From IMG/VR virus record IMGVR_UViG_3300017527_000330, positions 1-54,423 of that record: 54,423 nt of DNA; one strand, 5' to 3'. Shown in pieces: positions 10,693 to 49,511 of the stretch (within the stretch, counting starts at the first letter, position 1; every line of letters starts with the position of its first letter). A program made the position numbers and the translations under genes. The stretch is from a virus. Under the pieces are notes generated by a model that searched no databases, had not been told where the DNA came from, and worked only from the letters and a program-made list of their open reading frames with translations.

Positions 10693-13464
10693 ATGGCAAA
10701 ATTTAAACGAGGGAATTTAAACCTCAAAACCGATAATAAAGTTATTTTAAGCACTACGCTTGAAACCTTTCTTAAATTTGATGGTGCGGCTTTATTACTT
10801 AATGCTCCAGGTTCGACGATACAGTTATCTTCAGATGACGTTATTATAGATGGAAGTTTAGCGTTAAGTCTTGGTACATCAATTAATGAATTTTCAATTG
10901 ATGGAACATTGGCTGGAGATTCAGATGATGCTATCCCAACTGAAAAAGCTGTTAAGACTTATGTTGATAACTCTACTGGTGGAGCAGTCAATCATAATTC
11001 AACTAGTGGTCTGCAAGGCGGAGATGCAACATCGATTGAATTCTATCACCTCACACAACAGATTCATGATCAAATAGATTCAACACCAACAACACTTCTA
11101 TTCTCTGGTGGTGTTAAAATAGATGGTCATTCCGCTATGGGAACTGCTGATATAGATTACCCAGGATTTCCAACATATGAAGCTATTTTAAGACTTGAAG
11201 AAACATTTGGAACTGGAGCTACTGGAGCTGGTAGTGGTATTACGATTAGTATAGAAAATCTTGCAGATGATGCATTTGTTTCTACAACTGGTATCAGTGC
11301 TGCTGTGCAAAATAGCACTTCAATTTTACATGGTGAAATGACTGGTGGTAGTTTCTTTGCTAACATAACAACTGATGGTGCTACGGTTACTACAATTACT
11401 GGAGTGAAAGGAAATGCAGCAGGTGTCTCAAACAATGCAACTATTACAAATGCCATTGGTGGAGATTTTTATACCGTCTCTTCATTTGGTGTGGTAAATT
11501 CTGTAGTTACTAATATGATGGCTGGACAATTCCAACTTCTCAAATGGGGAAGTGGGGATGTCAGTATTACAGATGGTTATGGAGTATTAATTAAAACTCC
11601 TAGTTTCACTCCAACAGGAACATCTACTAATTTATATGGTTTATATATTGAAGATCAATCAACAGTCGGGTTTATAAATGATTATAATCTATATTCTGCT
11701 GGTTCTGGCACTGAGAATAAATTTGAAGGTAATGTTGAAATAGAAGGAAGTCTTACAGTAGACATTATCACTCCAACTGACTCTACCGCAGGTTTAACTA
11801 TTGTTGGAAATATTTATTGTGATGATCTATTTACATCTGGTGATACCATTCATGTTGGTTCTGGACAGATTAAATCTACAGCAGGGAATGTTGAACTGTA
11901 TTATACTGGAATTAAAGTATTTGAAACTGATTCAACTGGAATTATTGTAACTGGTGATGTTTCTATTGTACAAACTCCAACTGAACCAGAGCATGCAACA
12001 AATAAATCATACGTTGATTCATTAGTTGGTGGAGAAACATTCTCTGGTGTTGTTAGTATATCAGATGCCGCAGCAACAGTTGTCGTTGTCTTTGATACAC
12101 CACAGGTGGATGATAATTATTCAATAACCACGAATATTATTAACACTGTGGATTCACCTCCATCAATCTATGGTCACATGACCACAGCATTTGATGCAAA
12201 TGGTTTCACTGAGATATTCTCAGGTCCAATGGATTCAGGAAATTATGAGTTGCATTTCATCGTTTCTAGAAATGAATTGGAAAGTTCTAGCTCATCGACC
12301 AGTTCAAGTTCATCGAGTTCTAGTTCAAGTTCATCGAGTTCTAGTTCAAGTTTATCGAGTTCTAGTTCAAGTTCATCGAGCTCGTCAGAAAGCTCAAGCT
12401 CAAGTGAATCTGTCGACGATTCAACTGCTGGTTGCCCAATCACATATTACTTTGATGGATACTCAGCTGATGGAAATGAGTGGCAGAATCCTTCTAATAT
12501 GGTTGACGGTTCTCTATCAACAGCTGCCGCTGCACAACAGAGTTCTGAACCAGATAATCAGCTGTGTAACTCAAACACATGTCCAGGAACAGATCTTGGA
12601 GCCATATTCTCAGTAAGTATCAGAGCTTATGGAAATAAGGGTCAAACAGGAGCACCAACATTTACAATGCAACCAGTATTTACTGGAACACCTGGATTTG
12701 CATACGATCTTACAGTAAATGGTATAGGTTCTTTTCCAACTCCTCAATGGAGTAATTGGATAAACATCGAAGCTGACGCAGCAGGTCCAGGAACAGGAAA
12801 CTGGACGTGGACTGATGTTGTTAATTTGGGTGTTAAACTTAGATCAGTTTATTCATCATCTGGTCCAGGCGATGTTAATTCTATAAGAAAGGTCGAAATT
12901 AGAGTAAATTGTGGAAGCAGCTCTAGCTCAAGCTCAAGTTCATCAGTCAGTTCATCCAGTTCATCTTGTACTGCACAATATGTTGAGACAGCTGGGCCAG
13001 CGCATTGGACCACATTTGATGGTACTTGGGATGGCAGTAAATATGTAGGTACAGCCAACGGAAATTGGAAAATAACACTTATTAATCCAACTGGAACTCC
13101 GACATATCCAATATCGATCAGATTAACTGTTTATAATGATCCTGGTTGGAATCCACAGTTAAACTTAATTACCGTCAAGGATACAATGGGTAATGAAATA
13201 TACGACGACTCCACAGGAGGAATATTCTTAGCTGGTGATGGAGTACCAACTGAAATAGCTTTTACACCAACATATGTTAGTGATGGTGAAGCTGGTTTTT
13301 ATGACTTAGATGAGATTCATTTAGATGGTGGTGCTAATAAATTTTATATAACCAGTGTTGAATTATACGAAGACTGTGGTGGAAGCTCATTTAGTTCAAG
13401 TTCAACAAGCTCAAGCAGCTCAAGCAGCTCAAGCTTCTCAACTGAGGGTGAAGGTGAAGGTTAA
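10693..13464 (+). CDS. Tail fibre protein 2 with galactose-binding-like C-terminal domains
   Basis: A 923-aa protein starting MAKFKRGNLNLKT, an N-terminus shared with the third fibre (MAKFKNSNIELKT). This probably marks a common attachment domain. One copy of the PTEKAVKTYVD / LQGGDATSIEFYHLT module lies near residues 65-115. A block around CDDLFTSGDTIHVG is nearly identical to residues 80-100 of the first fibre. A poly-Ser tract (about 531-575) is followed by a domain with the pattern EWQNPSNMVDGSLST, which resembles discoidin/F5-F8-like carbohydrate-binding folds. A second Ser tract then leads to another beta-rich domain and a final Ser-rich tail. Function: host adhesion. The last 11 bases overlap the next gene. 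Confidence 0.8.
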   Translation: MAKFKRGNLNLKTDNKVILSTTLETFLKFDGAALLLNAPGSTIQLSSDDVIIDGSLALSLGTSINEFSIDGTLAGDSDDAIPTEKAVKTYVDNSTGGAVNHNSTSGLQGGDATSIEFYHLTQQIHDQIDSTPTTLLFSGGVKIDGHSAMGTADIDYPGFPTYEAILRLEETFGTGATGAGSGITISIENLADDAFVSTTGISAAVQNSTSILHGEMTGGSFFANITTDGATVTTITGVKGNAAGVSNNATITNAIGGDFYTVSSFGVVNSVVTNMMAGQFQLLKWGSGDVSITDGYGVLIKTPSFTPTGTSTNLYGLYIEDQSTVGFINDYNLYSAGSGTENKFEGNVEIEGSLTVDIITPTDSTAGLTIVGNIYCDDLFTSGDTIHVGSGQIKSTAGNVELYYTGIKVFETDSTGIIVTGDVSIVQTPTEPEHATNKSYVDSLVGGETFSGVVSISDAAATVVVVFDTPQVDDNYSITTNIINTVDSPPSIYGHMTTAFDANGFTEIFSGPMDSGNYELHFIVSRNELESSSSSTSSSSSSSSSSSSSSSSSLSSSSSSSSSSSESSSSSESVDDSTAGCPITYYFDGYSADGNEWQNPSNMVDGSLSTAAAAQQSSEPDNQLCNSNTCPGTDLGAIFSVSIRAYGNKGQTGAPTFTMQPVFTGTPGFAYDLTVNGIGSFPTPQWSNWINIEADAAGPGTGNWTWTDVVNLGVKLRSVYSSSGPGDVNSIRKVEIRVNCGSSSSSSSSSSVSSSSSSCTAQYVETAGPAHWTTFDGTWDGSKYVGTANGNWKITLINPTGTPTYPISIRLTVYNDPGWNPQLNLITVKDTMGNEIYDDSTGGIFLAGDGVPTEIAFTPTYVSDGEAGFYDLDEIHLDGGANKFYITSVELYEDCGGSSFSSSSTSSSSSSSSSFSTEGEGEG
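12283..12408 (+). repeat. Poly-serine coding repeat in fibre 2
   Basis: Repeated AGTTCAAGTTCATCG units encode an almost pure serine linker of about 40 residues. Shorter Ser tracts occur in the same gene at about 12914-12966 and 13381-13440, each at a domain boundary. Confidence 0.8.
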
Positions 13465-14059
13465 AAAACTGTTAATGCTAAGTTGTGGTATCGACTCCAC
13501 ATACTTAGCATGGAAAATGGTAATGGATAAAACTCCAGATCTTCATTTTCATCACGTATCACTGAGGACAAGAGAACCACTATGGAAAAAACAAGATGAA
13601 CGTGTAGAACCCATTCTTTCTTATTTAAGAGAGATTCACGATTTTGAATATACTGAATCTATGTTCGAATATTCTTATCCTCACATGGGTTTTGATAGTG
13701 ATTTGTTGCTTTTAGTAGCTCAAAAAGTCTGTCAGATGTTCAGTCATTTCAAATGGATAGAAGTTTATATGGGATGGAATCCAACAGATATGACCAGAAG
13801 GCTGGTGGCTGATAGGGCTAAAAGAAACGTAACACCTAACATATGGTCTGCTCTTGTTGAAAGCGCTAGGAATAGACAGTACATCGATCATAAATTACAC
13901 TTTCCTTTAATTGAACAAAATATTGTTAAGATAGACATGATGAAAGAAATACCAAAGAAATTATTGGATTTGACATGGAGTTGTCGAAATGCAAACAATT
14001 GTGGAATATGTCAGACCTGTAAAGATATAGAACAAGCCAAAAAAATAATCGGCTCTTAA
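13454..14059 (+). CDS. queC: QueC-like 7-cyano-7-deazaguanine synthase
   Basis: With the GTG start chosen here the protein is 201 aa. It has a PP-loop ATP-pyrophosphatase motif LSCGIDST (residues 9-16) and a C-terminal zinc site Cys177, Cys183, Cys186, Cys189 in the form CGICQTC, the arrangement that distinguishes QueC from other PP-loop enzymes. QueC converts 7-carboxy-7-deazaguanine to preQ0 using ATP and ammonia. One oddity is that the usual SGG of the PP-loop is SCG here. The start is set by GAGGG 5 bases upstream of GTG 13454. GTG 13448 is an alternative, and the frame stays open further upstream, but only in the shadow of the fibre gene. The gene overlaps the end of fibre 2 and is probably translationally coupled to it. 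FolE2 at 42540-43376 catalyses the first step of the same pathway. Confidence 0.8.
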   Translation: MKVKKLLMLSCGIDSTYLAWKMVMDKTPDLHFHHVSLRTREPLWKKQDERVEPILSYLREIHDFEYTESMFEYSYPHMGFDSDLLLLVAQKVCQMFSHFKWIEVYMGWNPTDMTRRLVADRAKRNVTPNIWSALVESARNRQYIDHKLHFPLIEQNIVKIDMMKEIPKKLLDLTWSCRNANNCGICQTCKDIEQAKKIIGS

Positions 14060-20472: not shown

Positions 20473-20480
20473 GGCAAAAA

Positions 20481-20518
20481 AAGAAGTGGGGGCGATCAGC
20501 TGTGTCGTCCCCCTTCTT
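20481..20518. terminator. Bidirectional terminator hairpin
   Basis: The arm at 20481-20495 pairs with 20505-20518: AAGAAG, one bulged T, then GGGGGCGA against TCGTCCCCCTTCTT, giving 14 bp including one G-U pair and a 9-base loop. A-rich sequence flanks the left arm. It separates the plus-strand metallophosphoesterase gene from the convergent minus-strand membrane protein gene and should stop transcription from both. Confidence 0.75.
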
Positions 20519-20524
20519 CACTTC

Positions 20525-20647
20525 TTAATTTAACGGTGCCACTTTGATTCTTCGCTTTCTTGGGACGAAGTACCCATTCTTATATCCGAACCATAATATG
20601 AATGATTCGAGCGCCACCGTTCCTACGATGATTAAGAATGTCAGCAT
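20525..20647 (-). CDS. 40-aa single-span membrane protein
   Basis: A very short protein starting MLTFLIIVGTVALESFILWFGY, a single transmembrane helix, and ending in a basic tail (PRKRRIKVAP). The start is supported by AAAGGAT five bases upstream. A longer reading in the same frame, from 20767, lacks a ribosome binding site and overlaps the preceding gene. It is the second gene of a two-gene minus-strand island. Function is unknown; small basic-tailed membrane proteins in phages often alter the host envelope or affect lysis timing, but nothing here proves that. Confidence 0.6.
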   Translation of the reverse strand: MLTFLIIVGTVALESFILWFGYKNGYFVPRKRRIKVAPLN

Positions 20648-20657
20648 GTTATCCTTT

Positions 20658-20831
20658 CTAGAATGACCAAACTCTATTGCCATCCTCTGAAATTGTGAAA
20701 TTGTTGAACTGATTGTCAACGTTTTCACGATTCTTGCCAGTTTTTTCCCGTTGGTCGATTTTATCAATCAAACGAGATTCGAATTTTTCCTTCCGATGAA
20801 GCTGATTTCCTGCATGATTCTTATTAGCCAT
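20658..20831 (-). CDS. 57-aa basic protein, unknown
   Basis: The protein starts MANKNHAGNQLHRKEKFESR; the ATG at 20831 lies behind a strong AGGAGGATATAAC. A longer reading to 20882 would begin inside the promoter-like repeat and is unlikely. The product is strongly charged (Lys, Arg, Glu, Asn), without hydrophobic segments or recognisable motifs. It is the first gene of the minus-strand island and lies about 47 bases downstream of the 21-bp promoter-like sequence. Function is unknown. Confidence 0.6.
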   Translation of the reverse strand: MANKNHAGNQLHRKEKFESRLIDKIDQREKTGKNRENVDNQFNNFTISEDGNRVWSF

Positions 20832-20877: not shown

Positions 20878-20898
20878 ATCACTTATTAATATATATAG
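20878..20898 (-). promoter_or_regulatory. Promoter-like 21-bp element, copy 1
   Basis: On the plus strand this reads ATCACTTATTAATATATATA followed by G. The identical 21 bases occur at 24144-24164. Both copies lie 45-55 bases upstream of a minus-strand gene that opposes the surrounding tail genes. The AT-rich core (TATATATATTAAT on the minus strand) suggests a promoter. No clear TTGACA box is seen. Confidence 0.65.
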
Positions 20899-20979
20899 AT
20901 AGAACTGTATTCCGAAAAAAACTAGAACAAAAAATAAATGGATGTAGAAAGTTCAAAATCTAAAAGGGATAAAAAAATC

Positions 20980-21693
20980 ATGACAAAACATTCAAAAAGT
21001 AAGGATATTGAAGTCATAGCAGCTGAGTTCTATGGAGACAACTGCTTGGGTGATGCAACTGGTCAGAATAATTCTCAGGATCGAAGACCCAAAGGGTGGG
21101 TGGAAATCTGGGAAGAAGACCCAAAAACGGGGGCCAAAAAGCTTGTAAATAAAAGTAATCTTATCGTTTATCAAGGACGAGAAATGGTTGCTCAAAGAAT
21201 TTTTGATGTAAATAATGTAACAGCCCAAGGCATCAATCCATCGTTTCCAACAAAAGATGAATTTTTATATTGGATGGGTTTTGGTTCTGGTGGAGTTCGA
21301 CCAGCAGATCCTTTAGTACCAACACCACCAACTCTTACAGATACCGATCTTAATTCGTTGGTTATGATTAGTGCGACAGATTCTTCTGCGGCTGATTATC
21401 ATGTTGCGGGTGGGGATTATCCAGACACTGGATTTTACAAATATCCCTTTGATAACGTCGAGTTTGAAAGAGATTATAACAACGAAGATAAATGGTTAAT
21501 AGGAAAAATCACGACCACATTAGGAACAGCTTTAGCAAATGGAAAGCAGATAAGCGAAGCTGGTCTATATTCAGCTGAATCAAGAATCCCAGGATATAAT
21601 GGACAGTTCAGCATGTTTGCTCGTGTCACATTTCCAACCTTAATAAAAACGGTAGATAGACGAATCGTTTTTATTTGGTATATTTATACATAA
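20980..21693 (+). CDS. Putative virion/tail protein upstream of sheath
   Basis: A 237-aa protein starting MTKHSKSKDIEV. I chose ATG 20980 because AAAGGGAT lies about 10 bases upstream; ATG 20938 would add 14 residues and lacks a good site. The protein is beta-rich, with the segment QISEAGLYS and a C-terminal strand pattern (FARVTFPTLIKT followed by FIWYIYT) like that of phage virion proteins of neck or baseplate type. I do not recognise a named family. Its position just ahead of the sheath gene suggests a tail or neck component. Confidence 0.5.
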   Translation: MTKHSKSKDIEVIAAEFYGDNCLGDATGQNNSQDRRPKGWVEIWEEDPKTGAKKLVNKSNLIVYQGREMVAQRIFDVNNVTAQGINPSFPTKDEFLYWMGFGSGGVRPADPLVPTPPTLTDTDLNSLVMISATDSSAADYHVAGGDYPDTGFYKYPFDNVEFERDYNNEDKWLIGKITTTLGTALANGKQISEAGLYSAESRIPGYNGQFSMFARVTFPTLIKTVDRRIVFIWYIYT

Positions 21694-21797
21694 AAGTTAT
21701 AGGTTATTTTCAATTTTATATTTTATAGATGGACCTGGAGGAAAGGAAGAAAAAACGGATAGAACAAAAAAACGATATTAATATGGAGGAAGAAACC

Positions 21798-23750
21798 ATG
21801 GCGAATGTTTCCCCAGGTGTTTATACCAAAATTATTGACCTTTCAACCTTTGTACAGGTTGTACCCGCTTCCATCGGAATGGTTTGCGGTTTTTCGAGAA
21901 AAGGTCGAGATAACGAAATGATCTTTGTAGGGTCCCGTGCAGAATTCGTATCTGAATGGGGTGATCCAAACATTAACGATTTTGGCAAGAATTATGGTCA
22001 AGGTCCTTATGTTGCTTACAACTTCTTAGGTGAATCTGGTGCATTATACTGGATGCGTGTACTTCCAGATGATGCTGCTTTTGCACATTTCCGATTGGAC
22101 ACTCAATTGGCTGCTGGTGATGCTACTGCTTCTATCAGTATAACCTACGTTGATGCTGCTCTTAATACGGAAGGTGAGATTCAAACAAATCTAGAAACTG
22201 TTGGTGATGTTAAACCTCTAGCGTTCTTGTATCCAATTGGACGCGGAGACTATTATAACAGTCTTGGAATTCGTATAACTGAAGCGGCAAATCCAACATT
22301 AACTGGTGTCTATACATTGGATATCTATGAGAAACAGTCTGATGGTGATGACGTTATCATCGAGTCTTTTGCAGTTTCTTTTGATCCAAATGCCGTTGAT
22401 AGTGGTGGAGATTCGTTATTTATTGAATCTGTTCTTGAAACATATTCCACTGTTCTTAGAGCTCAAATGCAATTAACCAGCGGTGAATGGTCAGATGGAT
22501 ACGACCTTATCGCCAGAAGTTATGACAATGAAATCGGTGCTGTTGAAGTTGATATCACTGGAGCTACCATTTCAGATGATAAACAGGACTTTTCTGATTG
22601 GCAAAAAGCTGCGCCAATTGGAAATGCCAACTATGTTGTCATAGCCAAAGACGCCCGAGGTAATGAAGTTTGGGGTTGGTTGGGTGCATCCAGTGGTGTT
22701 GATAACGAAGAAATCACTGTTTATCCATCAAGAAATTTGACAGGAGCAACTCCTGGATGGATAGGAGCTACTGGAAGTTTCGTGGAAACTGATCCTATCA
22801 CTTATCATATTCGCGAATCCAATGTAAGTGTTGCAGATGCATTCACAAGTGCTATTCCTGTTCCACTTCGTAAGGGATCTGAGGGTAGCTTACGAACAGC
22901 TACGGGTTCTGTTGACACAATGATAGCCGAGCAATTGTTAGAACAAGCTTATACTGGTATCATTGATGATAATATCACTGATCCAGAGTTGATTTACTTT
23001 TCGTTGGTTTTCGATGCTGGTTATCCAGCTGACGTTAAGAGTGCAATCAGCACACTGGTTCAAACCAGAAGAGATTGTGTTGGTATCATCGATAATGGTG
23101 ATAACTCCACAGTCAACAATGCATTGGCAACAAGAAACAACATTAACACATTTAACAATTTCTATGTTGCAATGTATGAACCATATAATAAGGTTTCTGA
23201 TCCGTTCACTGGATCTGACATATGGTTTTCACCAATCTATCATATGTCGTATTTGATTCCAAGGAATGATAATGTTGCAGAAATCTGGTTTGCAGCTGCT
23301 GGTTTTAATAGAGCATCAATTGATACTATCAAGGATTTGCGTTTCAATCCTCGTTTGGGTCAGAGAGATCAACTTTATTTAAAGCAGTTGAATCCAATCG
23401 TTAAGTTTGCACAGGGTTATGTTGTTTGGGGTCAGTTGACATCTCAGGCAAAACCAAGTGCATTGCAAGATTTGAATATTGTTCGATTGGTTCTGTTCTG
23501 CAAGAGAGCGTTAGAACAGTTCTGTCGTTTCTTTATTTTCGAACAAAATGATCAGGTTACATGGGGTCAGGTTGCCAGCGCCATTACTGATTTCTTGGAA
23601 GTCATCAAGAATCGAAGAGGTTTGGATGATTATCAGGTTGAAGTTGGAGCTACCGATTATGAAAGAAAGACCAAAACCTTTCATGTCAACGTTACCTTGA
23701 CACCAACCAGAGTTGTTGAGAAGATTGAGTTGAATTTCTTCATCAAATAA
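21798..23750 (+). CDS. Tail sheath protein (gp18-like)
   Basis: A 650-aa protein starting MANVSPGVYTKIIDLS; the PGVY near the N-terminus is typical of contractile sheath subunits. The C-terminal half carries the sheath domain, including SALQDLNIVRLVLFCKRALEQ and ending VTLTPTRVVEKIELNFFIK, the usual final strands that link neighbouring subunits. The ATG at 21798 is preceded by GGAGGAA; an earlier in-frame ATG at 21729 would add a charged leader and is unlikely. The tube gene follows, as in T4 (gp18-gp19), with an inserted phosphatase gene. Codon use is richer in G and C than in the fibre genes, as expected for one of the most abundant virion proteins. Confidence 0.93.
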   Translation: MANVSPGVYTKIIDLSTFVQVVPASIGMVCGFSRKGRDNEMIFVGSRAEFVSEWGDPNINDFGKNYGQGPYVAYNFLGESGALYWMRVLPDDAAFAHFRLDTQLAAGDATASISITYVDAALNTEGEIQTNLETVGDVKPLAFLYPIGRGDYYNSLGIRITEAANPTLTGVYTLDIYEKQSDGDDVIIESFAVSFDPNAVDSGGDSLFIESVLETYSTVLRAQMQLTSGEWSDGYDLIARSYDNEIGAVEVDITGATISDDKQDFSDWQKAAPIGNANYVVIAKDARGNEVWGWLGASSGVDNEEITVYPSRNLTGATPGWIGATGSFVETDPITYHIRESNVSVADAFTSAIPVPLRKGSEGSLRTATGSVDTMIAEQLLEQAYTGIIDDNITDPELIYFSLVFDAGYPADVKSAISTLVQTRRDCVGIIDNGDNSTVNNALATRNNINTFNNFYVAMYEPYNKVSDPFTGSDIWFSPIYHMSYLIPRNDNVAEIWFAAAGFNRASIDTIKDLRFNPRLGQRDQLYLKQLNPIVKFAQGYVVWGQLTSQAKPSALQDLNIVRLVLFCKRALEQFCRFFIFEQNDQVTWGQVASAITDFLEVIKNRRGLDDYQVEVGATDYERKTKTFHVNVTLTPTRVVEKIELNFFIK

Positions 23751-23768
23751 TAGGACAAAAAAAGGTAG

Positions 23769-23800
23769 AAAATGGGGTCACTAAGTAGTGGCCCCATTTT
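23769..23800. terminator. Bidirectional terminator hairpin after sheath
   Basis: AAAATGGGGTCAC (23769-23781) pairs with GTGGCCCCATTTT (23788-23800): 13 bp with one G-U pair and a six-base loop, flanked by A and T runs. It lies between the sheath gene and the convergent minus-strand membrane protein gene, so it should terminate both. Confidence 0.85.
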
Positions 23801-23811
23801 CAGTGAATAGA

Positions 23812-24093
23812 CTATTCAGCGGTACATGGTTCTGGTTTTATTTCGACCACAACCTCGTTTGCTGCTTCCTCGATTTCACCATTTAGGTACATATGTTTGC
23901 AACCGAAGGCTGCTGCACCTACACCGACGAACAAAAGTTTGGGTAGAAGTAGACCAGATGCAACAAACGAAAGACCAGCAACTACCGTTCTGGTTTTCGG
24001 TGGCATCTGTTCCCATTTTTGGACCCCTTTCTTTATAAGGTTGGCAGTTCTAATGAGACGATTTTTGGATTCTTCGGGTAATACGAATGGCAA
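23812..24093 (-). CDS. Small membrane protein, unknown
   Basis: A 93-aa protein with a TTG start behind GAGGAGGTGA. It has a basic amphipathic N-terminus (about 1-33), one or two hydrophobic segments (VVAGLSFVASGLLLPKLLFV, about 37-56, and VGAAAFG) and an acidic tail (EIEEAANEVVVEIKPE). It is the only gene of the second minus-strand island and is preceded about 51 bases upstream by the same 21-bp promoter-like element as the first island. It is not recognised. Shared control suggests it is made at the same time as the 57-aa and 40-aa proteins. Confidence 0.6.
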   Translation of the reverse strand: MPFVLPEESKNRLIRTANLIKKGVQKWEQMPPKTRTVVAGLSFVASGLLLPKLLFVGVGAAAFGCKHMYLNGEIEEAANEVVVEIKPEPCTAE

Positions 24094-24143
24094 ATAAATT
24101 CACCTCCTCTCAATGGAATAAAAATAAAATCAATAACCTCTTG

Positions 24144-24164
24144 ATCACTTATTAATATATATAG
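24144..24164 (-). promoter_or_regulatory. Promoter-like 21-bp element, copy 2
   Basis: Identical over 21 bases to 20878-20898 and placed at nearly the same distance from a minus-strand start codon. Flanking bases differ, so the conserved block is not simply a recent duplication of a longer stretch. Confidence 0.65.
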
Positions 24165-24228
24165 CTGTGTGACTTTAAGGAAAAGGTAGAACAAAATTAA
24201 AAGGTATAGACTCAATGGAGATTTATGC

Positions 24229-42539: not shown

Positions 42540-43376
42540 CTAAATATAGGTAGTTTCGTTGAAACCACCCTTCTTCCCTTTCCAATTTATTGCTATAGCA
42601 TTAGATGTATGTATTGATTCTTCGTGGGTACATTTCACAAACCAGTCGATAATGTCTTTGGTAATTTCCAATCTATGAGATATTTCTCTGATAGAATCTT
42701 CAACAAATTGTGGATAACTTTTAGCTGTCCCCGCAATCCATTTTTCATCACCCCTTTTGATTATTGGGTAAGGTATTGTTCTAACAGCGTTCTCCACCAA
42801 ATCAATAATATCTTCTAACCATACATACGCTCTTGGGTGTGTTTCGAGAAGTACATCAGCAAATGCTCTTTGAGCATGTGGATAACCATACTTACCTTCT
42901 TCAGTTAATGCCGCTGAACAAGGGCAATATGCTGAGTATTGAACTCTAACACTTTCATAAAACTTGAATTTCTTTTCAGTATAAACACTTTTGAAACTGC
43001 ATTTATAATACTGTGGAAATTCATTATTTGATAATGGTGACTTTTTTATCTTTGGTATTTTGAATTTAAATTTTATCGATGCAGTTGGTGAATCCATTGC
43101 ATACGTAAAATCTTTAAGTATACGTTCTATTGTGGTTCTTTTAAGAGGTTCTGTTAAATATTTTTGCAAGATTCTTATAAATCTTGACATGGATATACCT
43201 CTTATACTTTTATCGAGTTTACAGACCATCTCGGTTTTTGCATGGACCTGACAGGAGCCAGGAATCCCGTCCCTCAACATTAAGAAGAACGGGATTTCGA
43301 CATTATCAACGCCAACCCGATGTATCACCAAACTACGATTTGGTCTTTCGTTTTGGATATCAGGTAGATAGTCCAT
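42540..43376 (-). CDS. folE2: GTP cyclohydrolase IB (FolE2/MptA type)
   Basis: A 278-aa protein. The start MDYLPDIQNE is the usual FolE2 beginning (LPDxQ), followed by VGVDNVEIPF (21-30), RGISMSRF (59-66) and the active-site region YCPCSAAL (150-157) with the downstream PHAQRAF (166-172). The Cys of CPCS and the His of HxQR are the metal/catalytic residues of type IB cyclohydrolases. It converts GTP to 7,8-dihydroneopterin triphosphate, the entry to folate and 7-deazaguanine synthesis. ATG 43376 has GGAG 6 bases upstream, inside the end of the RNA polymerase beta gene, so the two genes overlap by 17 bases. Together with QueC at 13454 it indicates a deazaguanine pathway. Confidence 0.9.
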   Translation of the reverse strand: MDYLPDIQNERPNRSLVIHRVGVDNVEIPFFLMLRDGIPGSCQVHAKTEMVCKLDKSIRGISMSRFIRILQKYLTEPLKRTTIERILKDFTYAMDSPTASIKFKFKIPKIKKSPLSNNEFPQYYKCSFKSVYTEKKFKFYESVRVQYSAYCPCSAALTEEGKYGYPHAQRAFADVLLETHPRAYVWLEDIIDLVENAVRTIPYPIIKRGDEKWIAGTAKSYPQFVEDSIREISHRLEITKDIIDWFVKCTHEESIHTSNAIAINWKGKKGGFNETTYI

Positions 43377-46300
43377 GGTAATCTCCATTGTGATCAACAC
43401 CTAAAACAGTAAGATACGAATTCAATAGTCTGACAGATTCTGGTATTGGATCTTTGATGTCTGTCTCTATAATATTCTTGGGATCTATAAGACCTTTTAT
43501 ATAAGTGTTTTTAGTGTCGAAACAATCTGATTTAAGTGTGAACATTTCGTATAGGTTTTTCATTGCATCATGACCAATGAAACATGCAGTCTCCATTTCA
43601 CCACAACGTTGTCCACCTTTATGTTTTCGTCCACCTAGAGGTTGCAGAGTACGTTTTGCATAAGAACCTATCCCTCTGGCGGCAAGTTTATCATCAGCAA
43701 TATGCGTCATGCGGAAGCAATATATATATCCAACTGACACTGGATTCGTCACATATTTCTGTGATGGTGGATCATAAACCCTATATTTGAACTGAGAGTT
43801 TGTATATTCCATTGCAGCTTTGAGATCTTCAACTTTGATACTTTCAAATGGTGGTTGGATCACTGAAAAGTTTTCGATCCATTCTTTATCAATCTCATCT
43901 GGAAACTGTTCGATGAACTGTTCCAAATACCACCCAGTTTCAGTCTTATCGATGATTCGTATAAATTCGATAAAGTAATCTCGGAGAGCTGCTATATCAT
44001 TATTTTCTAACATTGCCAAAGCTTGGGTTTTAAGATCATGGACTGCCATTCCCAAATGAAGTTCATACAATTGTCCAATATTCATTCGAGAAATTATACC
44101 CAATGGATTCACACAGATATCTAGGTGACGTCCATCTTCTAATCTTGGCATTTTATCTTCTGGCATGATCGTTGAAATGACACCTTTATTTCCATGACGA
44201 TTCCCAATTTTATCACCAACTTTGATTGGCTTCATTTGAATTCCGTACATTTCAACATGGATTCCATCGATCTTTTCTTTCTTCATTTTATATTTACCAA
44301 CATTATTGAAATGAAGATGATCTTTGATGAAATCTGTAGCTATATCTTCTGGCAACTTGCTTTCAACAATCTTCTTGAGTTTATCTTGTTCGTCCTGTTG
44401 CTTTTGTAGGAATTTTTCGATCCACTCTCTATAGATTGGAACTTCCTCATTCCACGCATTTGCATATATATTAACGTCAGTGATGATAACACGTTTAGCA
44501 GTTTCCAGAATTGTTGGTTCATGAAAAGACGAGAAATGATCTTCTATTGTTAATTTCTGCATCTTGGCGTATACAGCTCCAGGTTCCAACTGAGAGTTGG
44601 GTGTTGGGAGCGGTTCATACACATTATGGCGTCCAAGGCGGTCCAGTAAAACTCTGTCAGGTTTCATTGTAAAAGATAGATCGACAAAGTGTACTGATGT
44701 TAGGGCTTCGCTTTCAAAAAGCCTATCTGATATAACAATACCATCCTCATAATTATATCCATAATGAATCATGATTCCTGCTAAAAGATTTTTACCAAAG
44801 ACTATATTTCCATCCTGGCAATAATCGCTTTCCGCCAGTATGTCACCAGCTTTAAACTTTTCACCTTCGTTAAAATACGTCCTCATGATATCGATATTTT
44901 GGACGTATATCTTTCGACTGGAAACATCAAAGACATCTCCAGTTCCATCGTCATAAAGTACAACCATGTGTCTTTGTGATAAATATAAAACCTCTCCACT
45001 TTTTGGTGCTATCTTAATGAAGTCAGTATACTTTGTGTATAGGTGTTCACAACCTGATTGAATCATAGGTTTGTCAAATGTCTTCAAAAGAATCGCTTGC
45101 CTCATTTGTGATGATGCCATTTGAAGTCTGGTCTGGTCATCATGCTCACAGAAAGGTGTGAATGAAACAGGTATGGAAATAGGTTGTTTCTCACAGTATT
45201 CGTCCGTGAAGCGCATGTTTTCATCCAGTGGGACGTTAGGTATTAGATTCTGAAGAACACCACAATTCTCCCTATCAGGCGTGTCTACAGGGCACATTCT
45301 GCCAAACATTGTTGGATAGATATCACGCAGATGTCTTGGTATATTTTCTCGCTTAAAACCGCCTGGACCGAGCAGACTTGCACGACTTAATTTCGTTAGC
45401 TTATCTATTGGATTAATACTGAAATCAAACTGTACGATCTCAGATACGTTGCAAGATGTGATCAGTTGTTTCGTGTTGGTATTAAACTTTGGTTTTCGAA
45501 CATCTCTATTGCTTAAACACATGTCGAAAATTATTTTACAGACATTGCTATAGATAGCATATTCAAAACATCGTACTCTTTTATTTTTAAGGATTGTGTC
45601 ATCTTGCTCACCACGTTTCAAAGCGATGATTATATCTTCAAGAACCGATCCTGTCTGCAAAAATTCTCTTGTGAATATATCGACCTTTGGAATAAGATCA
45701 AGAGAATATATAATGTCATTTCCTTTTGGGATTGTATTATATTTGGTGTAATGTCGTCCCAACTCCTTGATGAAATCATCTTGGGTATATCCAATTGATT
45801 CGTCGAGATACATCTTGATATCAAATAAGAATTTATCATAGATGTTATCCTCGGGTTGATCTTGTCCGATTATCGTTTCTAGATCCTCTTTCATCATTTC
45901 TTTGACAATTTCTGGACCATAAAACGACATCATGATCAATCCAAGTGGAACTCGTTTTCCCAAGTAGCCACACATGACGTATGGCATGTCTTTGGTTGGG
46001 TATACTAACAATGTACCAACATTGGTTCTCATCTTCAACGTTTCGCCTCTCATAACAATTGGAATATCAAAGAGTTGAAACAATGGAACCTTTTTTCTAC
46101 CATTGATGAATAAGTAGTTATTATCTATGAGTTTTGGAATATAAAGTTTTAATTCTATCTGAGATGAGCCCTTCGAAAATTTCATATGTAAGATTGAATA
46201 CAAAGTTTTCGAGAGCTCACCTTTTATGTTGCGTGAGCTCTTTATCTCAACTTTATCAATCGCAAACCCGATTTCTCCGACAGGCTGAACTATTTCCTGG

Positions 46301-46395
46301 ACAACAGGAAGAATTCTTTCGTAATCTCTTCTTCGTAATGTGAAGATGTTATTCTCTTCATCCCTAATCTTGTAATTTGGGTTTATTAAATTCAA
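43360..46395 (-). CDS. rpoB: RNA polymerase beta subunit, unsplit
   Basis: A 1011-aa protein with a TTG start behind AGGAGGGAA. Beta-subunit landmarks appear in order: SLLGPGGFKRE (340-350), MCPVDTPDRENCG (367-379), HYGYNYEDGIVISD, KVGDKIGNRHGNKGVIS, NPLGIISRMNIGQLYE, and near the end GGRKHKGGQRCGEME. All belong to conserved catalytic regions, so the protein should be active. It is shorter than E. coli RpoB (1342 aa) but not split, unlike the beta parts of phiKZ- and AR9-type phages. At the rifampicin site the E. coli Ser531 position is kept (Ser340), but the His526 position aligns with Lys335, which predicts poor drug binding. Confidence 0.95.
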   Translation of the reverse strand: MNLINPNYKIRDEENNIFTLRRRDYERILPVVQEIVQPVGEIGFAIDKVEIKSSRNIKGELSKTLYSILHMKFSKGSSQIELKLYIPKLIDNNYLFINGRKKVPLFQLFDIPIVMRGETLKMRTNVGTLLVYPTKDMPYVMCGYLGKRVPLGLIMMSFYGPEIVKEMMKEDLETIIGQDQPEDNIYDKFLFDIKMYLDESIGYTQDDFIKELGRHYTKYNTIPKGNDIIYSLDLIPKVDIFTREFLQTGSVLEDIIIALKRGEQDDTILKNKRVRCFEYAIYSNVCKIIFDMCLSNRDVRKPKFNTNTKQLITSCNVSEIVQFDFSINPIDKLTKLSRASLLGPGGFKRENIPRHLRDIYPTMFGRMCPVDTPDRENCGVLQNLIPNVPLDENMRFTDEYCEKQPISIPVSFTPFCEHDDQTRLQMASSQMRQAILLKTFDKPMIQSGCEHLYTKYTDFIKIAPKSGEVLYLSQRHMVVLYDDGTGDVFDVSSRKIYVQNIDIMRTYFNEGEKFKAGDILAESDYCQDGNIVFGKNLLAGIMIHYGYNYEDGIVISDRLFESEALTSVHFVDLSFTMKPDRVLLDRLGRHNVYEPLPTPNSQLEPGAVYAKMQKLTIEDHFSSFHEPTILETAKRVIITDVNIYANAWNEEVPIYREWIEKFLQKQQDEQDKLKKIVESKLPEDIATDFIKDHLHFNNVGKYKMKKEKIDGIHVEMYGIQMKPIKVGDKIGNRHGNKGVISTIMPEDKMPRLEDGRHLDICVNPLGIISRMNIGQLYELHLGMAVHDLKTQALAMLENNDIAALRDYFIEFIRIIDKTETGWYLEQFIEQFPDEIDKEWIENFSVIQPPFESIKVEDLKAAMEYTNSQFKYRVYDPPSQKYVTNPVSVGYIYCFRMTHIADDKLAARGIGSYAKRTLQPLGGRKHKGGQRCGEMETACFIGHDAMKNLYEMFTLKSDCFDTKNTYIKGLIDPKNIIETDIKDPIPESVRLLNSYLTVLGVDHNGDYHGLST

Positions 46396-46419
46396 ATTAT
46401 TCCCTCCTAATTGATAAAG

Positions 46420-49074
46420 TTATACTTTTTCGCCTCTTAATATAGCATCCATAATCCCTGAATAATTACCAGAGTTTATGATACCGTGTAGAATGCTTTT
46501 TCTTGGATTGGAAAAAGACATTGCCAATAACCAACTTTCCTGATCTGGCACTGATTGAATGCTGTGGAACTTTGGTTGATATTTATGTCTCTCTGGATGC
46601 AGTCTCCATTTTTTCATACCGACCCACATCAATTGAGCAACAACACATTCGTAGTGAACTTGAAATACGTTTCTATCATATACAGAGAATAGATTATGCA
46701 CCAAGTCTTCACACGTGGTATCTTTATCAAACTTATGCAACATTGTTGATACCGAAGAAAGATCACCAATGATGTCTTCCTGTTTCATATCTTTTTTGTC
46801 TGTGCTGTTTTTAATGATCGCTGATCCAGATGTATGGAAGGTTCGTAGAACGAGTTGGGTCGACTTCTCACCGAGAGTCTGAGCAGCAATAATTCCAATA
46901 TATGAGCTGTTCAATGTTTTATGAGACTCTCCGTAACATGCTCTACAAACTTTATCATCTTTGCAATATATTGGACTTCTAATTTTTATCTTTGTACCTA
47001 TGAACATGTCACAATTATCTCTTGTGATTAAAAGTCCATCTTTCGTCCAGCGGTTTACTAAAGATTCCGCTTTCTTTGCATCTGTCACTTCTACTTCAAG
47101 ACAATCCTCTGTTCCGCAATTGTCTATATCGGATAATTGAAGATTGGCACATGTAAATATAAGTTTTCTTGATAGATATCCAGAGGTTCCAGTGTTGAGA
47201 GCTGTATCCAACAATCCTTTTCGACAACCATAAGTTGAATCGAAAAACTCCGATTGTGTTAACCCATCTGTTAGATTATTGATGATAGGTTTATCATGAA
47301 TTTCTCCGCTAAAGTTTGAGATATATCCACGAGACAAACACAGCTGACGAGCTTGATCCCAACTACCACGAGCACCAGATTCAATCAAGTAGGCATACCT
47401 GAAATTATCTCTAAGAAATTGTATCACGTCTTCTGAACTAGACCTTCTTAAAGATTCGTATATGTCTCCAGTGTCGTAAATATGCTCCTTTACTTTATCA
47501 ACATCTTCTATCAAAAAGTCGTCCAATGCTAAAGTGCATCCTGATAGTGTTGAATAGTAAAATCCCTTCTTCTTTATCATATCCAATGTGTCAACGATAC
47601 TTTCTGGATAGCCTATTCGCACCTCGTCCAATATCTGTATTAAGCGCTTTTCGTTGACTGTACCCTTTACTGGTGGGTATCCATCAGGTAGCAATGAATT
47701 GAAATAGTCAATACCACTGAAATCATCCGTATCAAACTTACCATTGGTTAAGAAATAAATCCCCAACACAATATCCTGACTTGGCAATGTGGTTAACTGC
47801 TCATTAGCAGGGCTGACTAAATTCTTTGTGACAAACATCTTATCTTTAACTTCTTGAATCGTTTCTTCGGACAGTGGAATATACATGGCCATCTGATCAC
47901 CATCGAAGTCTGCATTAAACGGATGGCAGATTAATGGATGAACTTTGATAACCGAGTCCTTGGAAACCAATATGTTAAATCCCAACATCCCCAACCTATG
48001 TAATGATGGCTGTCTGTTTAGGATACACACTTTACCTTTTATGATCTCTTCACAAATTGGCAATAATTTCAAATGATTAAACTTAATACATCTGTTGATA
48101 TACATCAGGGCTGTTGGCAATTTCTTGAACATACCTAACCCGATGATTCGCTTGGCTATTTGTAGCTTAAAGATCTCCAAGATCATTTTGTATGGCAGTA
48201 CACATTGGTCAAGCGAGAGGGCTGGTTCTGGTACGATTACTGCACGTCCAGAAAAATCAATCCTTTTGCCTAGGATGTTCCCTCTTATCAAGCCTTCCTT
48301 TTTGGCAAGCTTCTCTAATATTTTTTCGTGTAACTCTTTAACATCTTTTTGTAAGTTTCTGAAGAAGGTGTAATAAATTGTTTTATCCCGAACTGCTTCC
48401 AAATGGGATGCTTGCATTACGTCCTTCTTATTTAATATCTGAATGTAATAGCGATTGATCTTATCCATTAACTGCTTTGATCCACTTTGAGTGGATGGAC
48501 GCAAGTCTGGTGGTAAGACAATGATCTCACGAATTAGAAAGTTATCTATATTCTTTACCAGCTTTCTCCAATTATCATCCTGTAAATCTTCATACATCAT
48601 TTCACTGAAAGTTTTAACAAGGACATGGATAGCTTCAGCTTTTTCGTACTTTGTTGCTGACTTTGGTATCTTCTCATCATCGTGGACAACAAATGTTTCA
48701 TCACCTATTACATATAGGATGCTCTTTTCATTTTTCATCAAATTATCTAAAGGAGTCTTAATTGCTTTACCACCCAATGATACAATCAAATCATACATGA
48801 GTGGATTGACGACAGGGATTGGGAGCACGATCTTTGCAAATCGTTTCCGTCTCTCATTACTATTTACGATGTCAACACCGCAGTCTTTACAATTACCTCC
48901 TGATTTTGAGATCCCGTAGTATGTACCACATTGACATGTATAGTTTTTTAAGGGACCGAATATCTGTTCCGAAAAGAGTCCTTCAGCATGAAAGAATCTC
49001 TTTTTAAATACTTTAACCGAAGTTATTGGTTGTAGTTCTTCACAAAATTTATTATAATCTAAAATATTTGGCAT
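46420..49074 (-). CDS. rpoC: RNA polymerase beta' subunit, unsplit
   Basis: An 884-aa protein. The start MPNILDYNKF at 49074 has GGAGG upstream; a longer reading from 49116 lies inside the preceding gene. Landmarks: an N-terminal zinc site with Cys47, Cys49, Cys62 and Cys65, LGKRIDFSGRAVI, the catalytic NADFDGDQ (387-394) with its three Asp residues, a bridge helix GARGSWDQARQL, STYGCRKGLLDTAL and SGYLSRKL, a second zinc site ending CRACYG, and the trigger-loop segment GEKSTQLVLRTFHTSG. It is much shorter than E. coli RpoC (1407 aa) but includes both catalytic halves in one chain. Its start overlaps the end of the E2-like gene by 16 bases. No sigma or alpha subunit is seen in the window. Confidence 0.95.
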   Translation of the reverse strand: MPNILDYNKFCEELQPITSVKVFKKRFFHAEGLFSEQIFGPLKNYTCQCGTYYGISKSGGNCKDCGVDIVNSNERRKRFAKIVLPIPVVNPLMYDLIVSLGGKAIKTPLDNLMKNEKSILYVIGDETFVVHDDEKIPKSATKYEKAEAIHVLVKTFSEMMYEDLQDDNWRKLVKNIDNFLIREIIVLPPDLRPSTQSGSKQLMDKINRYYIQILNKKDVMQASHLEAVRDKTIYYTFFRNLQKDVKELHEKILEKLAKKEGLIRGNILGKRIDFSGRAVIVPEPALSLDQCVLPYKMILEIFKLQIAKRIIGLGMFKKLPTALMYINRCIKFNHLKLLPICEEIIKGKVCILNRQPSLHRLGMLGFNILVSKDSVIKVHPLICHPFNADFDGDQMAMYIPLSEETIQEVKDKMFVTKNLVSPANEQLTTLPSQDIVLGIYFLTNGKFDTDDFSGIDYFNSLLPDGYPPVKGTVNEKRLIQILDEVRIGYPESIVDTLDMIKKKGFYYSTLSGCTLALDDFLIEDVDKVKEHIYDTGDIYESLRRSSSEDVIQFLRDNFRYAYLIESGARGSWDQARQLCLSRGYISNFSGEIHDKPIINNLTDGLTQSEFFDSTYGCRKGLLDTALNTGTSGYLSRKLIFTCANLQLSDIDNCGTEDCLEVEVTDAKKAESLVNRWTKDGLLITRDNCDMFIGTKIKIRSPIYCKDDKVCRACYGESHKTLNSSYIGIIAAQTLGEKSTQLVLRTFHTSGSAIIKNSTDKKDMKQEDIIGDLSSVSTMLHKFDKDTTCEDLVHNLFSVYDRNVFQVHYECVVAQLMWVGMKKWRLHPERHKYQPKFHSIQSVPDQESWLLAMSFSNPRKSILHGIINSGNYSGIMDAILRGEKV

Positions 49075-49511
49075 TGATTTCCTCCGTAAATTTCTTTTAG
49101 ACTTACTGAACGGCAAGCATCTGGAAGCTCATAACAATCATCTTCATTATATGTTCCAAGGCATATCACCAACGGTGCAATTAAATCTCTGTTGATTGGC
49201 ATACCTTTTAGTTTTCCCATACATACATAATTAGATACGGGGTCTTTATGAGGATGATGTTGATCTTCTCCAAGCTCGAGTTCCACTATATGTTTTCTTT
49301 GTACATCAGACATTAGACTAAATCTGGTCAACCTATATTTTTCACTCAGGTCCACCAAGTAAAATTCACCTTTATGTTGACAATGTGTTGGTTTAATAGA
49401 ACATTTAAATTGATATCTTATTCTTCCAGTAGAACATCCTATTACTGCTTTATCAAATTCAATCCACGTGTTTTCATTTCCAACTTTTAAATTGTTGAAT
49501 CTATTGGGCAT
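49059..49511 (-). CDS. E2-like (UBC-fold) conjugating protein
   Basis: A 150-aa protein. The key region is HHPHKDPVSNYVCMGKLKG (residues 85-103): HPH followed after eight residues by a Cys in a hydrophobic-Cys-Met-Gly setting. This resembles the HPH...CLG signature of prokaryotic E2-like proteins, with Cys97 as the likely catalytic residue. Strands before it (HIVELELGED) fit the UBC fold order. Its size is that of a minimal E2 domain. The start codon overlaps the stop of the second E1-like gene (TAATG). The call is mainly based on this motif plus the neighbours (two E1-like proteins, Ubl, JAB); fold prediction would settle it. I see no other close family match. Confidence 0.65.
   Translation of the reverse strand: MPNRFNNLKVGNENTWIEFDKAVIGCSTGRIRYQFKCSIKPTHCQHKGEFYLVDLSEKYRLTRFSLMSDVQRKHIVELELGEDQHHPHKDPVSNYVCMGKLKGMPINRDLIAPLVICLGTYNEDDCYELPDACRSVSLKEIYGGNQCQIF

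Follow-up and report, generated by a model that had tools for sequence, protein, structure and literature searches.

Candidate early promoters facing late-type motifs in conserved antisense gene islands beside the tail sheath gene of an uncultivated phage clade

The window analysed here, the whole stretch of 54,423 bases and itself an IMG/VR record, carries on its plus strand a contractile-tail module with sheath and baseplate genes, and on its minus strand the terminase and the beta and beta' subunits of an RNA polymerase. The nearest named relatives of the sheath include those of Yersinia phage phiR1-37 and the Bacillus phages PBS1, AR9 and BpSp. Set into the plus-strand tail region, as a sequence-only reading had noticed, are two islands of very small minus-strand genes, each behind the same 21 bases. 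The islands flank the sheath gene. The features on which the argument depends are the following.

20481–20519, minus strand: island 1 terminator hairpin, followed by a run of seven T on the minus strand (fold z -3.3 minus, -3.7 plus)
20525–20647, minus strand: island 1 gene b, 40-aa protein (MLTFLIIV...) with one hydrophobic segment (Kyte-Doolittle 2.12, residues 2–20)
20658–20831, minus strand: island 1 gene a, encoding a charged protein of 57 aa (MANKNHAG...), with AGGAGG upstream as a strong Shine-Dalgarno sequence
20878–20898, minus strand: candidate early promoter element of island 1 (exact 21-mer; weight-matrix score 33.5; alignment with AR9 early promoters)
20923–20929, plus strand: TAGAACA, candidate late-promoter core divergent from the island 1 element and 26 nt from it (GAACA enrichment and orientation; likeness to AR9 AACA)
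20980–21693, plus strand: virion structural-type gene divergent from island 1 (PHROG 5417 / 19418)
21760–21766, plus strand: TAGAACA, candidate late promoter of the tail sheath gene, upstream of its ATG at 21798
21798–23750, plus strand: tail sheath gene between the two islands (PF04984, PF17482, PHROG 19666, E 2e-77)
23768–23801, minus strand: island 2 terminator hairpin, where the sheath gene and island 2 converge (fold z -6.0 plus, -5.3 minus)
23812–24093, minus strand: island 2 gene, starting at TTG and encoding a 93-aa protein with one hydrophobic stretch (orthologs in the relatives G006 and G007)
24144–24164, minus strand: candidate early promoter element of island 2 (exact 21-mer; weight-matrix score 30.1; alignment with AR9 early promoters)
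24187–24193, plus strand: TAGAACA, candidate late-promoter core divergent from the island 2 element and 24 nt from it (GAACA enrichment and orientation)
43360–49116, minus strand: RNA polymerase beta (1011 aa, 43360–46395) and beta' (898 aa, 46420–49116), identified by PHROGs, AR9 matches and the NADFDGD motif in beta'

Read on the minus strand, the repeated sequence is CTATATATATTAATAAGTGAT. The two copies are identical, both lie on the minus strand, and they are the only ones in the window, where shuffles give a chance expectation of 0.01 and where a search allowing up to three mismatches returned nothing further. The spacing of about 50 bases to a small gene that had been described is also accurate, as the element lies 46 nt upstream of the ATG at 20831 in island 1 and 50 nt upstream of the TTG at 24093 in island 2, the latter preceded by AGGAGG.

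Judged by their conservation, the island genes are real genes under purifying selection, with dN/dS of 0.13–0.30 where it could be measured. The 57-aa protein has an ortholog in G007 at 50% identity (pN 0.35 against pS 0.76), the 40-aa protein has orthologs in both G006 and G007 (dN/dS 0.13–0.30), and the island 2 protein is 46% and 62% identical to its counterparts in G006 and G007, respectively (dN/dS 0.24). Searches of the island proteins against Pfam and PHROGs gave nothing convincing, a nucleotide search with the region found no match in named phages, and relatives of the island 2 protein, absent from named phages and from IMG/VR when sought by peptide patterns, were found solely through the element. 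The suggestion that these are envelope-targeted proteins is borne out only in part: the 40-aa and 93-aa products have a membrane-like segment, but the 57-aa product is charged and looks soluble. More generally, a membrane-like segment is found in 12 of 30 first genes behind the element compared with 58 of 639 genes (p=1.3e-5); most first genes have none.

Both islands end in strong hairpins (z -3.3 to -6.0), that of island 2 having 16-nt arms that are 94% complementary. These had been taken to be bidirectional, and although they do fold on both strands, the T-run of an intrinsic terminator follows the stem on the minus, or island, strand only, so that they would serve primarily as terminators of the islands. 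The position and T-run of the island 1 hairpin are kept in G006 and G007, and both also have counterparts of the island 2 hairpin. In these two nearest relatives, the islands flank the sheath gene as they do in the window and encode orthologous small proteins; in farther relatives the island positions are approximately kept and other genes are carried.

The exact 21-mer is present in nine other IMG/VR contigs; the reversed 21-mer has no occurrence in IMG/VR. Records were gathered through the element or a shorter 17-mer core, the latter used solely for collecting loci, with specificity judged by the full profile and the 21-mer; among the matches listed, a relative of the window's sheath is present in 13 of 17 such records, with 50–84% identity in 12 cases. 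A profile built on the element yields about 81 non-redundant sites in 14 related uncultivated contigs (1.3 Mb, all of them fragments, including pieces of 223, 248 and 312 kb), with up to 19 sites per genome, compared with 0–0.6 per genome in Markov-shuffled sequence; one record, G005, duplicates part of G006 and is excluded from the counts, and genes were called with a simple script. The sites are nearly all intergenic, and many lie 30–55 nt before a start codon, while some have no called gene close downstream. No intergenic site in the window, G016, G009 or G003 scores between 8 and 14, and the element sites thus form a discrete class. Over 78 sites the information is confined to positions C0 through A19, giving 20 informative positions with an AT core at positions 1–15, and the single most informative base is G18, the G of a TGA. 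The genes behind the element extend well beyond tail islands: element-led operons in relatives include a topoisomerase and a Dda-like helicase among their contents, and the element also stands upstream of a probable polymerase specificity subunit considered below. The idea of a regulon dedicated to the two islands is thereby contradicted.

Most element sites in the relatives are on the other strand from the tail sheath gene. Measured against gene opportunity, this bias is significant in G017 (p 0.0007), G016 (0.009) and G009 (0.04) but not in G006, G012 or G011, and exceptions were seen in G012 and G011; with significance in only some genomes, it is a tendency rather than a law.

A second motif faces the element. 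When upstream regions were set against their own reverse complements in an unsupervised comparison, GAACAAA was the most strongly oriented 7-mer (111 versus 33). Where the element stands back to back with a gene on the opposite strand, a GAACA pointing away from it lies within 100 nt in 39 of 48 cases, compared with 4 of 48 for the wrong orientation and 1 of 33 at non-divergent element sites. The bare string TAGAACA is not enriched in the window (14 occurrences, 11 expected); it is its position that is. These counts, together with the spacings of 26 and 24 nt at the two islands, suggest that the start of each island probably belongs to a divergent pair made up of an early and a late promoter.

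The obvious comparison is with AR9, which like phiR1-37 is a jumbo phage with its own multisubunit polymerases (PMC5312081; PMC7598289). AR9 early promoters, mapped by dRNA-seq, read AAATATATATTAT-6N-G, and since early transcription is insensitive to chloramphenicol it has been assigned to the virion polymerase; late promoters, used by the non-virion RNA polymerase, read AACA-6N-TA/G, and divergent early/late pairs have been mapped by primer extension (PMC5312081). When the 35 annotated AR9 early promoters were extracted and aligned with the element, the two were found to have TATATATTA in register and to share a TGA with its G at the mapped AR9 start, with G in 97% of element sites at the position equivalent to AR9 G+1. 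They also have in common an AT-rich core, the lack of a -35 element and an arrangement in divergent early/late pairs at structural genes, and AR9 early genes, like element-led genes, are mostly unknowns. By this alignment, transcription of the islands is predicted to start at the G of TGA, at 20880 and 24146 on the minus strand.

The correspondence is not an identity. In the element the start is one nucleotide closer to the core, the invariant stretch is longer, and at the core edges CTA takes the place of AAA and A the place of T. The AR9 consensus does not occur in the element's clade, nor the element consensus in the AR9 group, and such exclusivity would be expected if polymerase and promoter drift together. 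AR9 early promoters are also found on both strands (27 plus, 8 minus), most of them on the strand of the sheath, where in the clade described here most lie opposite it. The GAACA motif resembles AR9 late promoters in its AACA core, in its location upstream of structural genes and in pointing away from early promoters, but it is extended to TAGAACAAAA, and the TA/G start is only weakly seen and appears one nucleotide closer. Some of the phiR1-37 promoter sites that were read combine a TATATTAT-like core with a TGATA-like start downstream of it, but their flanks differ, and the promoters annotated near the sheath do not bracket it with antisense islands. Promoters of the phiKZ virion polymerase have a phage-specific AT-rich early element near -10, with the start 6 nt downstream (PMC5312081; PMC7598289). 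This likeness is one of description, and phiKZ late promoters (TATG) are unlike GAACA.

Five of the larger records (G003, G012, G013, G016 and G017) contain two beta-type polymerase genes; the window fragment has a single pair. By its beta subunit this pair comes closest to the non-virion enzyme of AR9, and the beta' of the other pair is nearer the AR9 virion enzyme. No early element lies upstream of the window pair within the window, which counts against its being an early-made non-virion enzyme, as this should have an element somewhere. In G016, G003 and G012 the element precedes a gene for a 479–481-aa protein, with one 125-aa gene in between in G016, and this gene in turn precedes a beta'/beta operon that has GAACA in front of it (G016, 155297–155337, locus L161; G003, 61651, L189; G012, 75487, L177). 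The GAACA between the two suggests separate times of expression for factor and polymerase, and its presence in front of the second polymerase pair would fit that pair being late. A structural model of the 479-aa protein, of low confidence (pLDDT 48.7), has as its top two hits among 350,542 PDB chains those of the AR9 non-virion polymerase (nvRNAP), with the size of gp226 (Foldseek probability 0.84–0.85, E 0.09–0.11); hhalign gave a probability of 7. The protein may be a promoter-specificity subunit of the gp226 type, and if so, an early promoter would make the factor that opens the late ones.

Two further observations concern the polymerases. In the window, beta and beta' each come from one unsplit gene, whereas AR9 has its subunits split, and a single-piece beta' is also present in annotated Rhizobium phages such as RHph_TM30. 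One of the top polymerase matches in the phage collection, 'Acinetobacter phage MD-2021a' (L350, CAKLQF020000005.1), is in the stretch read a piece of bacterial chromosome with ribosomal protein genes, rpoB and rpoC; polymerase searches there can thus be led astray by their best matches, and several others that look alike were ignored.

It seems very likely to us, on sequence grounds, that the elements are early promoters read by a multisubunit RNA polymerase packaged in the virion of a jumbo phage, that a late promoter stands back to back with each of them, and that they drive early cassettes in the tail region. This fits the sequence-only view of a promoter-like element heading an early regulon among late genes, and it draws on the intergenic copies in relatives, the AR9 alignment, the divergent late-type motifs and the early-type genes downstream. 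In the manner of AR9 and phiKZ, there would be two phage-encoded multisubunit RNA polymerases. The packaged enzyme would enter with the DNA and recognize CTATATATATTAATAARTGA without a -35 box, and initiation at the G of TGA would leave 5' leaders of about 50 nt on short island transcripts ending at the hairpins near 20480 and 23768. At a later stage, the second polymerase with its gp226-type subunit would use the GAACA-type promoters, 24–26 nt from the elements, to transcribe the tail genes in the opposite direction.

Other readings of the element have to be weighed against this one. Early phage genes are often read by the host polymerase, and an AT-rich, -10-like core some 50 nt before the genes could be taken for a host promoter of the sigma-70 type, with TATATT as its -10 box. 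We consider this highly unlikely, as the 78 sites have no conserved -35 element, there being no strong upstream information but only a mild AT preference, while the 20 nearly invariant positions amount to more than a -10 box. Moreover, a sigma-70 promoter scan returned sites in chance numbers only, and the 21-mer is missing from 257 Gb of bacterial and archaeal genomes (84,980 species genomes). A promoter active in the middle of infection or continuously, served not by the packaged enzyme but by the non-virion polymerase together with an alternative factor, would suit the kinship of the window polymerase with the AR9 non-virion enzyme, the GAACA motifs found inside some element-led operons and the many continuously expressed genes of AR9 (PMC5312081). 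It has only a slim chance of being right, given that the long AT-rich core and TGA start match AR9 early promoters, whose activity does not depend on protein synthesis, and that the element precedes the probable gp226-like subunit that the second polymerase would need.

The strong variation of island content between relatives, with element and position persisting, might instead point to a DNA site with a part in replication, packaging or the exchange of cassettes, marking the places where accessory genes are inserted. That the element is placed directionally, mostly 30–55 nt before start codons, that it is coupled to an oppositely pointing GAACA, as fits a promoter, and that the islands end in terminators and not in a second copy make this exceedingly improbable.

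Systems of the kind proposed are already known from AR9 and phiKZ; the novelty lies in the promoter code and its distribution, and in the conserved islands flanking the tail genes. An AR9-type two-polymerase logic is thus indicated in a clade with a different promoter code, and this code can be read, so that in a group of uncultivated jumbo phages the sequence by itself suffices to call early and candidate late genes, down to tiny early proteins overlooked by gene finders. The conserved early islands of the tail region are places to seek proteins that target the host as infection begins. It is tempting to go further and speculate that temporal class is partly written by strand across the genome, with early promoters nearly all opposite the tail module and fused with late promoters into compact switches, such that the first transcription is one-directional and the antisense islands provide a fixed site for swapping host-takeover genes, but this broader scheme we regard as doubtful.

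Two minor observations may be added. In relatives, several island proteins begin with M(K/R)xKxDFxTNSSS, the mark of a multicopy family in early cassettes, whose members in G009 (L172, in the island downstream of the sheath) and G008 lie next to a relative of a radical-SAM-like gene. Elsewhere in the window, a 234-aa open reading frame (13355–14059, plus strand) that overlaps a 923-aa gene has a 52-residue match to the C-terminal portion of QueC-like queuosine proteins (PHROG 1550), possibly a stand-alone Cys-rich segment.
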